Source: Psychrobacter sp. P11G3 (GTDB taxonomy: Bacteria; Pseudomonadota; Gammaproteobacteria; Pseudomonadales; Moraxellaceae). Taken from it: DNA of 64,000 nucleotides. Location: positions 1,550,001 through 1,614,000 of the forward strand of contig NZ_CM003596.1 in assembly GCF_001435845.1 (NCBI RefSeq), read 5' to 3'. Below are positions 4,668 through 9,053 of the stretch, in pieces. The translations under genes were made by a program, and so were the position numbers. Within the stretch, counting starts at the first letter, position 1. Each line of letters starts with the position of its first letter. The notes beneath the pieces are model-generated. The model was given only the letters and a program-made list of their open reading frames with translations. It did not search any database and was not told the DNA's origin.

Positions 4668-4967
4668 CTATCTTGATTTCACAACGACCACTTTTTGTGC
4701 TGGATGTTTGTCTTTAACAACGATTACTTTTTTGGCTTTAGGTTTTGCTTTCGCTACGACCACTTGCTTGGCCTTAGGCTTTGCTTTAACCACGACCACT
4801 TGTTTCGCTTTGGGCTTTGCCTTCACGACGACTGCTTGTTTTGTCTGATGTTTGTCTTTGACTACGACAACTTGTTGGGCCGCATTCGCTGGACCGATCA
4901 TAGCAAAGCAAGTAGATACGGCCAATAGTGAGCTAATAGCGATTTTTTTCATGTTGAAGTTTTTCAT
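4668..4967 (-). CDS. Small secreted Val/Lys/Ala repeat protein
   Basis: A 99-residue protein with a signal peptide cleaved near GPANAAQQ. The mature part is almost entirely repeats of the form VVVVKAKPKAKQ: about three tight 12-13-residue copies flanked by looser VVVVKDKHQTKQ-like units at each end. It is strongly basic, rich in Val, Lys and Ala, and without cysteine. Alternating beta-prone VVVV and cationic KxKPKAK blocks suggest a surface- or nucleic-acid-binding peptide or an amyloid-like strand, but no family is recognised. Slippage between near-identical DNA repeats could change copy number. Met6 is an alternative start. Confidence 0.7.
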   Translation of the reverse strand: MKNFNMKKIAISSLLAVSTCFAMIGPANAAQQVVVVKDKHQTKQAVVVKAKPKAKQVVVVKAKPKAKQVVVAKAKPKAKKVIVVKDKHPAQKVVVVKSR

Positions 4968-5504: not shown

Positions 5505-5660
5505 TTAAACCTTACAAGCCGCACTCGCTTCTTTGGCTTTTTCATAGACAGCTTGAGGGTCTAGACCTAATGCTGCGACATCGTTTAGGTACTTTTTAGT
5601 ACCCGCTTCTAATGAGCCTTTCCATTGTGGGTCATTTAATGGATCGGGAATGTCTATCAT
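5505..5660 (-). CDS. Possible 51-residue hypothetical ORF
   Basis: An ATG-initiated frame encodes MIDIPDPLNDPQWKGSLEAG followed by a helical segment ending EKAKEASAACKV. An in-frame stop lies just upstream of the ATG, so it is either a complete small protein or the C-terminal remnant of a larger one. The composition looks protein-like (amphipathic helix, well-used codons). The tiny ORF and terminator downstream make a plausible transcription unit. No family recognised. Confidence 0.4.
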   Translation of the reverse strand: MIDIPDPLNDPQWKGSLEAGTKKYLNDVAALGLDPQAVYEKAKEASAACKV

Positions 5661-5710
5661 AGTGTCGCATAAACACTAAAATTTTAGGCTACTTTTAGCA
5701 GGAAGTTCAG

Positions 5711-6178
5711 ATGTCAGAGTATTTTGCCAAAATCAACTGAGTTCGAGACAGTCAAGAAAGCTATATTGATAATAAATATAGCTGAGGGCACGAATGGATA
5801 TTTAATGGCGGTGTTGTCGTGCAAGCTTCATCTTCTCCTCATGTGGGGACCTTGCCTTATCCTGTTGAGGAAAATGTAGATCCTGAAGAGGCTTTTTTGG
5901 CCTCTCTTTCAGGCTGCCACATGCTTTTCTTTTTATCTATTGCCGCCAAAAGAAAATATGTGATTGATTCATACATAGACAATGCGGTAGGCACTATGGA
6001 AAAAGACAGCGATGGTAAAATATCAATGACTAAAGTGATATTAAAACCGCAGGTTACATATTCGGGTGATAAACAGCTGATAACGGAACAGCTTGAAAAA
6101 ATGCATCATCAGGCGCATGAGCAATGCTTTATCTCCAACTCGGTGAAAACTGAAATTGTTACGGAGATTGTGGTTTGA
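5711..6178 (+). pseudogene. OsmC-family gene interrupted by two in-frame TGA codons
   Basis: From ATG 5711 the frame reads MSEYFAKIN-stop-VRDSQESYIDNKYS-stop-GHEWIFNGGVVVQASSSP and continues open to 6178, a total of 155 codons, which is full length for the OsmC/Ohr family. TGA codons are at 5738-5740 (a Trp position by context, TGG to TGA) and 5783-5785 (an Arg position by context, CGA to TGA). The catalytic cysteine regions (LSGCHMLF and HEQCFISNS) remain. The later GTG at 5819 lacks a ribosome binding site, so the remaining open part is unlikely to be expressed. Read as a recent pseudogene of a peroxide-reducing enzyme. Confidence 0.8.
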
Positions 6179-6370
6179 TATAGGTGGGGTATTGAATTCT
6201 TTATATATATCAAGGTAATTATAAAGTATAGTATGTTTATTCATATTAGCCTCTGTTACTGAGTTGTTAGACAAAATAATTATGGTCTTGATGCTGAACT
6301 AAGATCATCTGAAAAAAGCGTAGGCTAACACCGTATGGAATTTATTATATCTTTATCTCTAGGAAATTAA

Positions 6371-7732
6371 ATGGACATTAAAATATTCTCATTAGAAAAT
6401 CAAAAAAGTAAAATATATGATAGGAGAACAAGGAAGTATTTTGATGAAGTATATAAATCATACGCTACAGGATGTTATCGCTCTGCTACTGTCATGCTTT
6501 GGTCTGTTATAGTTTGTGATATTATATTTAAGCTACAAGAATTAAGAGACTTATATGCTGATGAAGCTGCAAAGAAAATACTTATAGAAATTGAAAGTTT
6601 ACAGAAGGCAGATCCTTATTCTCCAAAATGGGAAAAGGAACTAATTAAGTTGGTATTCGAAAGAACTCAATTGCTAGATACAGCATCAAATCATAAAGTT
6701 ATGATGATTCAAGAGAATCGACACTTATCGGCTCATCCAGTTATTAGTAGTGAGGATACACTTTTTGAACCAACAGAAGAGATGGTGAGAAGTGATATTA
6801 GAAATAGTATTGAAGTTATACTTTGTAAGCCTCCATTCTTGACACAAAAAATCCTATCTACTATTTTATCTGATCTTGAAAAAATTAAAGATATTTTCCC
6901 TGATGATAAATCGCTATTTAATTATTTGGATGCAAAGTACTTAAATTCTCTAACGTCTGAAATAAAAATAAAAATATTCCGCGGGCTATGGAAATTTGGT
7001 TTTAAGTCTGAAGAAGAAAAATCGAAAGAAAATAGAGATGTAAATATAAGGGCATTAAAACTTATATTTCAAAAAGAAAGAACTTCAGTAATACAAGCTA
7101 TTAACCATGAAGTTAAATACTATTCGAGTATATCCAATGAATCTGAAACTATAAAGCATCTAGTCGATTTTATATTTCTGGAAAGAGAAGTTTATTTGGC
7201 TTTAGATGTTTCCGCTCAAGAACTTATTAAACGAGTATTGTTAGATAACTTTTCTTATTTTGGAATCGCGTTTTTTATGTCTGAGTCACCAAGTAAGCAT
7301 TTAATAAAATTAACTGAATGGATTTTAAGTAATCTGTACCAAAAGTATGGAGGAAAAGGGAAGTACATAAATAAAGAACATTTATCAAAATTGAAAAGTG
7401 TCGCAGAAGAGTTCTCACTAGAGGATGAGTATAGAAGGTTTGGTATAGCTTGCTTTATCAGCAGCTATGACTTTGAAAGAGCAGATATGTACTTTAAACG
7501 TTTTATTAATCCCAATCTGGATAAATTTGAAGTTGAAGATTTTAAGGTATTGCTCGAAGGAACTAACAAGAACAATCAGTGCTACTGGAGAAATAGAAAT
7601 GAAAATGAGTCATTAAAAATTCTCCAAGCAGCGAAAGCTAAAATGAATAATGATTTTGATTTTTCAGTTTATGAAAACCTCCCTTTTGATAAAATAGAAG
7701 ATAAAATAGAAGAAATAACAGGTGAAGTGTAA
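6371..7732 (+). CDS. Unknown protein with HEPN/DUF4145-like N-terminal segment
   Basis: A 453-residue soluble protein that I cannot assign to a named family. Residues 20-125 form a helical region ([20 protein letters not shown]) ending in ENRHLSAHP, in which R117-HLSA-H122 fits the Rx4-6H motif, with His after Arg, of HEPN-type ribonucleases and DUF4145-like domains. The remaining 300 residues are predicted helical, Lys/Glu/Ile-rich, with no other motif. The gene is visibly more AT-rich than its neighbours, stands alone, and sits next to a pseudogene and tiny ORFs, all signs of horizontal acquisition. A role in RNA cleavage or defence is inference only. Confidence 0.6.
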
Positions 7733-7909
7733 AAAGATATTCAATCAGGACTGCTAGCTGCTTACTAAGTTATACTTTGCTTCAGATTTTAGCAGACTAT
7801 TACTAACTTTTTATGCGAGCATTGATATTATTTCCATTGGCAAGTTAAATAAACTAAACTTCATCTAAATTTTTTACACTATAATTACTTAGACTCGAGT
7901 TAATGCGTA

Positions 7910-7945
7910 GATTGAAGCAAGTAATGGCTTCAGTCTATTTTTTTT
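7910..7945 (+). terminator. Terminator downstream of the HEPN-like gene
   Basis: Stem GATTGAAGC (7910-7918) with GCTTCAGTC (7927-7935), one G-U pair, followed by TA and eight T. It reads on the + strand and lies about 180 bases after the 7732 stop, just before the convergent OYE gene. Confidence 0.65.
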
Positions 7946-7958
7946 GATTCAATTACAT

Positions 7959-9053
7959 TTACTCTATCGGAGACGGCTTACCATGTGGGCTTGAGCGTAG
8001 ATATTGTTTAGGTGCTTTGACGGTTGCACCAAGCTCGGCCGCCGCATGCCAAGGCCAGTGCGGGTCATACAGGATGCCGCGTGCCAATGCAACCGCATCC
8101 GCTTGCTGCTCCGCAATGATGCTTTGCGCTTGCTCGGCTTCGGTGATTAAGCCCACTGCGACGACGGGTATATTGACGGCTTCTTTTATGGCGGTTGCAA
8201 AAGGCACTTGGAAGTTAGGCTCTACAGGGATCTGCTGGTCTGGGCTAAGTCCTGCGGTGCTCACATGGATATAATCACAGCCTAACGCCTCCAAAGCTTT
8301 AGCCAGCTCAATCGTTTGGTTGAGGTCCCAGCCGCCTTCAACCCAATCGGTTGCAGACACACGCACACCTACGGGCTTTTTGTTTGAAAACTCAGCTCGA
8401 ACCGCTGTAAACACCTCAAGTAACAAGCGCATTCTATTCTCAAGGTTACCGCCGTACTGATCTTCACGGTTATTAGAAAGTGGCGACAAAAACTGATGCA
8501 ATAGATAACCGTGTGCCCCATGAAGTTCAATTAAATCAAGGCCCAGAGCATCAGCGCGTTTTGCCGCATTCACAAAATCACTTACTAGCGCATCAATGTC
8601 ATTTTGATCCATTGCTGTGGGTACAGTAGAGTTTTCGTCATAGGCAAGCGCCGATGGTGCGATCGTTTGCCAGCCATTTACCTCATCAGGGGCAATCGAA
8701 CCGCCGCCGTCCCATGGTTTTTCAGTTGATGCTTTACGCCCAGCATGGGCAAGTTGTACGCCTATTGGCATAGGACTGTACTGCCTGATTGCTGTTAGCG
8801 TTTTATCCAGTGCCGCTTGCGTCCTGTCATCCCATAATCCCAAATCAGCATAGCTGATACGCCCTTGTGGATTGACCGCAGTCGCTTCTAAAATAAGTAG
8901 TCCTGCGCCGCTCAAACTCATTTGGCCCAAATGGATCGTATGCCAATCACTTGCCGCGCCATCGTTGGCAGAGTATTGGCACATGGGTGCGATGATAATA
9001 CGGTTATCTAATGTGAGTTGCCCAAGTTTCAAAGGCGAAAAAAGCTGGCTCAT
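7959..9053 (-). CDS. NADH:flavin oxidoreductase, YqjM/XenA-type old yellow enzyme
   Basis: A 364-residue FMN-dependent ene-reductase that reduces activated C=C bonds with NAD(P)H. Family marks: N-terminal FSPLKLGQLTLDNRIIIAPM, Cys25 in APMCQYSA (the redox-tuning cysteine of the YqjM/XenA class), GVQLAHAGRKAS, the substrate-binding pair H178/H181 in ELHGAHGYLLHQFLSP, SNNREDQYGG, and the C-terminal FMN-binding DAVALARGILYDPHWPWHAA. Length matches the thermophilic-like OYE class. GAGG lies about 7 bases before the ATG. Single gene, convergent with the HEPN-like gene. Confidence 0.92.
   Translation of the reverse strand: MSQLFSPLKLGQLTLDNRIIIAPMCQYSANDGAASDWHTIHLGQMSLSGAGLLILEATAVNPQGRISYADLGLWDDRTQAALDKTLTAIRQYSPMPIGVQLAHAGRKASTEKPWDGGGSIAPDEVNGWQTIAPSALAYDENSTVPTAMDQNDIDALVSDFVNAAKRADALGLDLIELHGAHGYLLHQFLSPLSNNREDQYGGNLENRMRLLLEVFTAVRAEFSNKKPVGVRVSATDWVEGGWDLNQTIELAKALEALGCDYIHVSTAGLSPDQQIPVEPNFQVPFATAIKEAVNIPVVAVGLITEAEQAQSIIAEQQADAVALARGILYDPHWPWHAAAELGATVKAPKQYLRSSPHGKPSPIE

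Follow-up and report, generated by a model that had tools for sequence, protein, structure and literature searches.

PD-T7-3, the family to which the closest described relatives of the gene studied here belong, is already known to block phages in E. coli, and structures are deposited. The system was identified in E. coli with T7 and gave stronger protection against T-even phages, in a study that recorded remote HEPN similarity in 6 of 21 systems, classed 12 of the 21 as probably abortive and mutated four; its section 7 text assigns PD-T7-3 neither to the 12 nor to the four (PMC9519451). A published review table lists PD-T7-3 as a HEPN system (PMC10952713). In a survey of HEPN proteins, the signature is given as Rx4-6H with a polar residue after the arginine, mostly N, D or H, and many families are described with an upstream acidic residue, typically within Ex3[KR] (PMC3710099). 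The PDB entry 9wxf, named 'Dandelion', holds 12 chains of the Dandelion sequence. Our literature search for Dandelion found no paper, and a 2026 review that came up as a candidate does not carry the word in its main text.

A further relative, BxaP of Akkermansia, has been reported to be structurally similar to PD-T7-3 (PMC10799925). BxaP is a single protein with an N-terminal DUF4145/HEPN hit and a weak C-terminal HEAT hit, acts against T4 and gives an abortive-like phenotype; it sits inside BREX and RM loci, whereas PD-T7-3 is said to be absent from defence islands (PMC10799925).

Here we describe a member of the family in Psychrobacter sp. P11G3, located in a 64,000-nucleotide stretch of contig NZ_CM003596.1 (positions 1,550,001 to 1,614,000; hereafter the window, which sets the numbering). 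We document its family membership, the conservation of its motif and the signs of its acquisition. What is new is its address: a slot, bordered on the left by a broken OsmC gene and on the right by an oxidoreductase gene, that holds other stand-alone genes in congeners.

A full-length PD-T7-3 gene in Psychrobacter

The gene and the two parts of its product are as follows.

6371..7732, + strand: PD-T7-3 gene, 453 aa, stop included (ORF; PADLOC PDLC04108; PDB 9wxf)
6371..6841, + strand: N-terminal HEPN domain, residues 1-157 (match to PDB 9wx2, 'Dandelion-hepn', E 7.1e-86)
6842..7729, + strand: C-terminal part, residues 158-453, presumed sensor or regulator (match to PDB 9wwz over residues 157-452)

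The reading frame listed for this gene is intact across 453 codons, and its ATG is preceded by AGGA at six bases. Residues 5-438 of the protein matched positions 3-429 of the 432-position PADLOC model for PD-T7-3 (545.7 bits, E 2.4e-164); for comparison, the copy of P2-EC30, to which our protein is 65.4% identical, scores 558.3 bits. With the E. coli PD-T7-3 (PMC9519451) the gene shares the full-length PADLOC model, the single-gene arrangement and the HEPN signature. In a search of PDB chain sequences, 9wxf was matched across residues 1-452 (668 bits), 9wx2 by residues 1-157 and 9wwz by residues 157-452 (E 2.3e-107), the latter two matches showing that the depositors cut Dandelion in two at about residue 157, with the HEPN domain before the cut and a C-terminal part after it. 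Dandelion and our protein align residue by residue over 1-452 and share both the RHLSAHP motif and the border near residue 157, but the Dandelion chain differs in sequence; over its first ~200 residues, the 9wxf chain seems on visual comparison to be identical to an ORF of the IMG/VR contig L029.

By these matches, the gene belongs to the known single-gene anti-phage system PD-T7-3, and its family is not a new one. The statement of the initial annotation that the 330 residues after the first third match nothing does not hold, as the PADLOC model and 9wxf match the protein along its whole length. The identification itself is ordinary and well-supported. Elsewhere, the protein had no match in NCBIfam, its best match in PHROGs reached only E 0.11, and Pfam returned no family at cut-off, HEPN-type families included. 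A Pfam match to an N6-adenine methyltransferase (PF10237; E 0.029, below cut-off, 35 residues) and PDB matches to a carboxylesterase (E 0.42) and a reverse transcriptase (E 1.3) were set aside as noise.

Conservation of the candidate HEPN active-site residues

Two segments of the N-terminal domain carry the candidate active site.

6518..6532, + strand: D50-x3-K54, holding the candidate for the conserved acidic residue of a HEPN active site (both residues kept in 110 of 110 rows)
6719..6736, + strand: R117-HLSA-H122, HEPN R-x4-H active-site motif (both residues kept in 112 of 112 rows)

The Rx4-6H motif noticed from the sequence is present, as R117-H-L-S-A-H122, and R117 is the sole start of an R-x4-6-H in the protein. 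By itself the motif proves nothing, because at least one R-x4-6-H occurs in 61% of 2000 shuffled proteins (mean 0.93), and we rejected it as stand-alone evidence; it is conservation that carries the proof. A protein search that scored the 8000 candidates sharing most words yielded 112 homologues at E ≤ 0.001, which were aligned with the query in 113 rows. The initial annotation had tied its reading to conservation of R117 and H122, and both, together with P123, are kept in all 112 rows with letters at these positions (query included; one partial row lacks the region). D50, K54, W87 and E88 are kept in 110 of 110 rows, three rows being without the region, and residue 118, directly after R117, is H in 104, N in 7 and Y in 1 of 112 rows. 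A smaller alignment, of the query and 45 selected homologues, placed the same residues among its invariant columns.

R117 and H122, position 118 and D50-x3-K54 fit the HEPN signatures, the last as a variant with D for E. Across the 46 aligned members, the sole HEPN-type entry among the 25 of 34 Pfam families listed was HepT-like_2 (2 members, best E 0.085). The HEPN label of the protein thus rests on the conserved residues (R117/H122 and D50/K54, invariant where covered), on the deposited name of 9wx2 and on the published table (PMC10952713), and in these respects the HEPN reading of the initial annotation stands. Very probably, to judge from its sequence, the product of this gene cuts RNA with its HEPN domain.

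In the C-terminal part, a TPR protein was marginally similar to the PD-T7-3 family profile (E 0.024), and 1 of the 46 members matched a TPR model (E 2.9e-7). These matches make a helical-repeat sensor plausible, and we take the suggestion no further.

Acquisition and spread of the gene

The gene had been described as distinctly AT-rich, and this is so: its GC content is 30.0% (GC3 22.9%), the lowest among the 48 non-overlapping ORFs of at least 150 aa in the window (mean 44.5%, sd 3.3). Its distribution in the genus is sparse. At E ≤ 0.001, the family profile matched 6 of 105 genomes, own included: the own copy, which is the single one in this genome; a member in G055; three distant proteins in G043, G063 and G093; and a very short one in G086. 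The G055 member (L054:10504-11808) is 33% identical over 429 columns, scores 478.8 bits in PADLOC and is the only close full-length relative among the 104 other congeneric genomes; lying as a single gene among chromosomal genes, it is probably a separate acquisition. The G063 protein, the only one of the three distant proteins that we scanned, matches PD-T7-3 over most of its length with 56 bits. This more distant relative (L056:9752-11116, 454 aa) has an RNKSAHP motif and a sub-threshold DUF4145 match, and it sits among chromosomal genes adjoining transposase-like ORFs.

None of the 112 homologues is identical to the query. A match was found in 1 of 50,697 phage records, namely ORF1 of P2-EC30 in the P2 Z-region, and in 141 plasmid records, 6 of which cover at least 80% of the query. 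DNA matches occurred in 15 of 5,426 complete E. coli genomes, 14 of them over at least 80%. We inspected three of these 15 copies. The first is flanked by tail fibre assembly and tail sheath genes in a P2-like prophage, the second adjoins an inovirus Gp2-family gene and an IS2 transposase, and the third, which is shortened, belongs to a Rac-like prophage that also has recE and kilR. From viral contigs 23 loci were retrieved, L029 being the one read, and a single-sequence genome scan added two further matches, in Catenovulum and Providencia.

Whereas relatives lie in P2-like and Rac-like prophages, the Psychrobacter copy occupies a chromosomal slot with no prophage genes noticed adjoining. By eye and unaligned, we noticed no counterpart around it to the repeats annotated around the P2-EC30 copy, and the repeats flanking it are short, mostly imperfect pairs with no convincing attachment or terminal repeats. 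Scans of the window with Rfam (gathering threshold) and for tRNAs returned nothing, and thus no tRNA attachment site was found. A promoter scan was uninformative, with 6 promoter-like sites against 9.7 in shuffles, and searching the own genome for HNH gave no hit. Given its low GC content and its sparse distribution in the genus, the gene is by these signs horizontally acquired; with the full-length PD-T7-3 match and the relatives in prophages, this bears out the earlier suggestion of an acquired defence gene.

The slot between the OsmC and oxidoreductase genes

The edges of the slot and the features near them are listed here.

5711..6178, + strand: OsmC-family gene at the left slot edge, interrupted close to its start by two in-frame stops (PF02566, E 1.2e-15)
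6222..6352, + strand: leader segment common to G026, G088 and G004; ends 18 bases before the PD-T7-3 start codon
7907..7945, + strand: hairpin and T run, terminator-like; 12-pair stem, in a flank common to congeners without the gene
7959..9053, - strand: oxidoreductase gene, 364 aa, convergent; right slot edge (ORF list)

The neighbouring pseudogene reported by the initial annotation is the OsmC-family gene; its PF02566 match falls on the open part (5819-6175), and congeners carry longer open copies. The right edge is a gene whose product we take to be an Old Yellow Enzyme-like oxidoreductase. At E ≤ 1e-120 this gene is present in 18 of the 105 genomes, counting the own one; a nineteenth genome, G095, has the 3' end of the gene at a contig end. 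The adjoining DNA was read in 17 of the 19 genomes, G042 and G026 breaking off at contig edges. We define the slot as window positions 6184-7958 (~1.8 kb) and its counterparts in loci L052, L053, L069-L073, L075, L076 and L079-L085.

In eight congeners, the slot holds seven other stand-alone genes, one of them for an unrelated HEPN protein. This is a 435 aa protein of G063 and G095, whose copies agree at 432 of 435 residues; it carries the NCBI name HEPN domain-containing, with some relatives named Apea-like. Neither Pfam nor PADLOC yielded a family for it, and the R and H of its RNELVH-type motif are kept in all 119 rows with letters, in an alignment of 120 out of the 145 found. This protein has a conserved R-x4-H motif in common with PD-T7-3 but differs in having no PADLOC match and in the place of the motif, which lies towards the C-terminus (residue 377 of 435) as opposed to the N-terminal third. 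The 279 aa protein of G104, named hypothetical protein, matches PADLOC RTasHEPN weakly (E 0.00041) and keeps an R-x4-H in 18 of 18 rows. G004 has a 368 aa PIN_12 protein (E 8e-33), and the slot protein of G002, 559 aa long, is of the DUF6119/TIGR04141 kind (E 1.1e-137 and 3.6e-142), described as 'sporadically distributed'; our literature searches found no paper tying DUF6119 to defence and nothing relevant on Psychrobacter hotspots. Three further occupants have no clear Pfam, PADLOC or NCBIfam family.

L071:1741-3066: G043 slot protein, 441 aa
L072:1528-2229: G003 slot protein, 233 aa
L075:2792-3880: G088 slot protein, 362 aa

These three are candidate defence genes of an unknown kind. The remaining slots were labelled by eye: that of G079 holds a 102 aa ORF followed by a LysR-like gene, that of G037 a transposase-like ORF, and those of G094, G057, G059, G035, G058 and G023 a LysR-like gene; in five of these six an oxidoreductase module and a transposase-like ORF lie further left, G058 being seen in part. 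Near the slot of G079 (L082), at ~5.7 to 3.8 kb to the left of its oxidoreductase gene, lies the gene of a 622 aa protein that by eye resembles an ATPase bearing a TOPRIM-like part and may be an OLD-like defence protein.

In total, the 17 slots hold a HEPN, HEPN-like or PIN protein in 5 cases (own included), TIGR04141 in 1, an orphan in 3 and regulatory-looking, small or transposon-borne genes in 8. As a modest control, the DNA to the right of the slot is collinear with G094 and G057 over 5.3 and 5.2 kb at ~94.5%; to the left, the alignment spans 2.4 kb for G094 (85%) and 0.7 kb for G057 (87%). We tentatively read the slot as a chromosomal Psychrobacter hotspot whose flanks stay fixed while the stand-alone genes between them may be exchanged, with no evident recombinase of its own, and in which anti-phage nucleases, of unrelated HEPN types and of the PIN type, may be over-represented; we hold this reading at somewhat less than even confidence.

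The leader at the left edge also precedes other genes in G026, G088 and G004, with a second gene between it and the named slot gene in G088 and G004. Its position just upstream of unrelated genes gives the impression of a shared leader behind which the cargo is swapped.

At the right edge, the initial annotation had given the gene its own terminator. A hairpin with a T run does lie at 7907-7945 (-16.5 kcal/mol, z -3.8; the terminator scan found 1 site against 0.7 expected by chance), but its stem is part of a flank shared by congeners that lack the gene, and we therefore regard the stem as a property of the site. This flank (7811 or 7821 to 8000) is common to 9 of the 104 other congeneric genomes at 74-77% identity, and a profile search found a PD-T7-3 family match in none of these nine. 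In three of the nine that were aligned, the stem-like sequence is kept and the long T run is absent. Nine aligned rows fall into two flank types: one with the 7907-7938 stem (window, G094, G057 and G104), and another (G063, G043, G088, G004 and G002), of which all but the differing G043 have a hairpin-like GCTCAA...TTGAGC stretch. Among the aligned rows, the long T run occurs in the window only.

Further left, a ~160-base stretch of the window (5505-5668) matches many places in many congeners and is the end of a longer reading frame in G063; at 5668, the window lacks ~200 bases that G063 and G095 have. A small protein encoded at 4668-4967 (- strand), which begins with a signal-like segment and contains repeats of the VVVVKAKPKAKQ type, is conserved in G063 and G095.

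A proposed mechanism and its alternatives

We consider it likely that the gene is an acquired PD-T7-3 defence system, in which a HEPN RNase would be restrained by a C-terminal sensor until infection releases RNA cleavage, with a probably abortive outcome. Other HEPN RNases act as dimers. Residues 1-157 would form a metal-independent HEPN RNase, likewise acting as a dimer, with R117 and H122 as its active site, helped by D50. The ~295-residue C-terminal part would keep this RNase inactive, and would release it on sensing a phage product or a phage-induced state; the released enzyme would then cut RNA and stop the infection, most likely with the loss of the cell. For the Psychrobacter copy, we infer the RNase activity, the autoinhibition, the trigger and the abortive outcome.

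HEPN effectors in defence are mostly suicidal, which counts against direct immunity. Under that alternative, which keeps the same family and the same RNase, phage RNA would be cut selectively and the cell would survive; we judge it unlikely, yet it deserves more weight than the others that follow. Direct immunity was reported for 9 of 21 systems, in a text that places PD-T7-3 in neither group (PMC9519451). Against it, the structural relative BxaP showed no growth at MOI 2 while phage replication was blocked (PMC10799925).

In a further reading, the gene would be a decaying passenger, functionless in its Psychrobacter host. It does adjoin the broken OsmC gene, and a close full-length relative exists in only 1 of 104 other congeneric genomes; but the 453-codon frame is intact, the invariant residues are present, and a 453 aa protein, 95% identical, exists elsewhere (P0001), which leaves this reading very unlikely. 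We find it scarcely probable that the HEPN domain serves as a binding module without catalysis and that defence comes about by another route. Some HEPN proteins without the motif are still effective toxins (PMC3710099), but R117, H122, D50 and K54 are invariant where covered, and binding alone would hardly need that. A toxin whose antitoxin has been lost or hidden, as might be imagined from the HEPN toxins of MNT-HEPN pairs (PMC3710099), is barely credible, since the ORF list of the window shows no evident partner gene beside the gene, the neighbours differ among the 3 inspected of 15 E. coli copies, and PD-T7-3 is described as a single-protein system (PMC10799925).

Discussion

With the PD-T7-3 gene at 6371-7732, a validated single-gene phage defence with solved structures is extended to Psychrobacter, and four invariant residues (R117, H122, D50 and K54) are pinned down as targets for mutation. 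The address of the gene is more interesting than its sequence alone could reveal. The slot presents a case of gene exchange with no evident integrase, and its address is of wider use, because several of its occupants carry RNase-type signatures and together provide a short list of candidate defence genes. If the hotspot reading is true, the unnamed occupants of the slot would be candidates for new one-gene defence systems.
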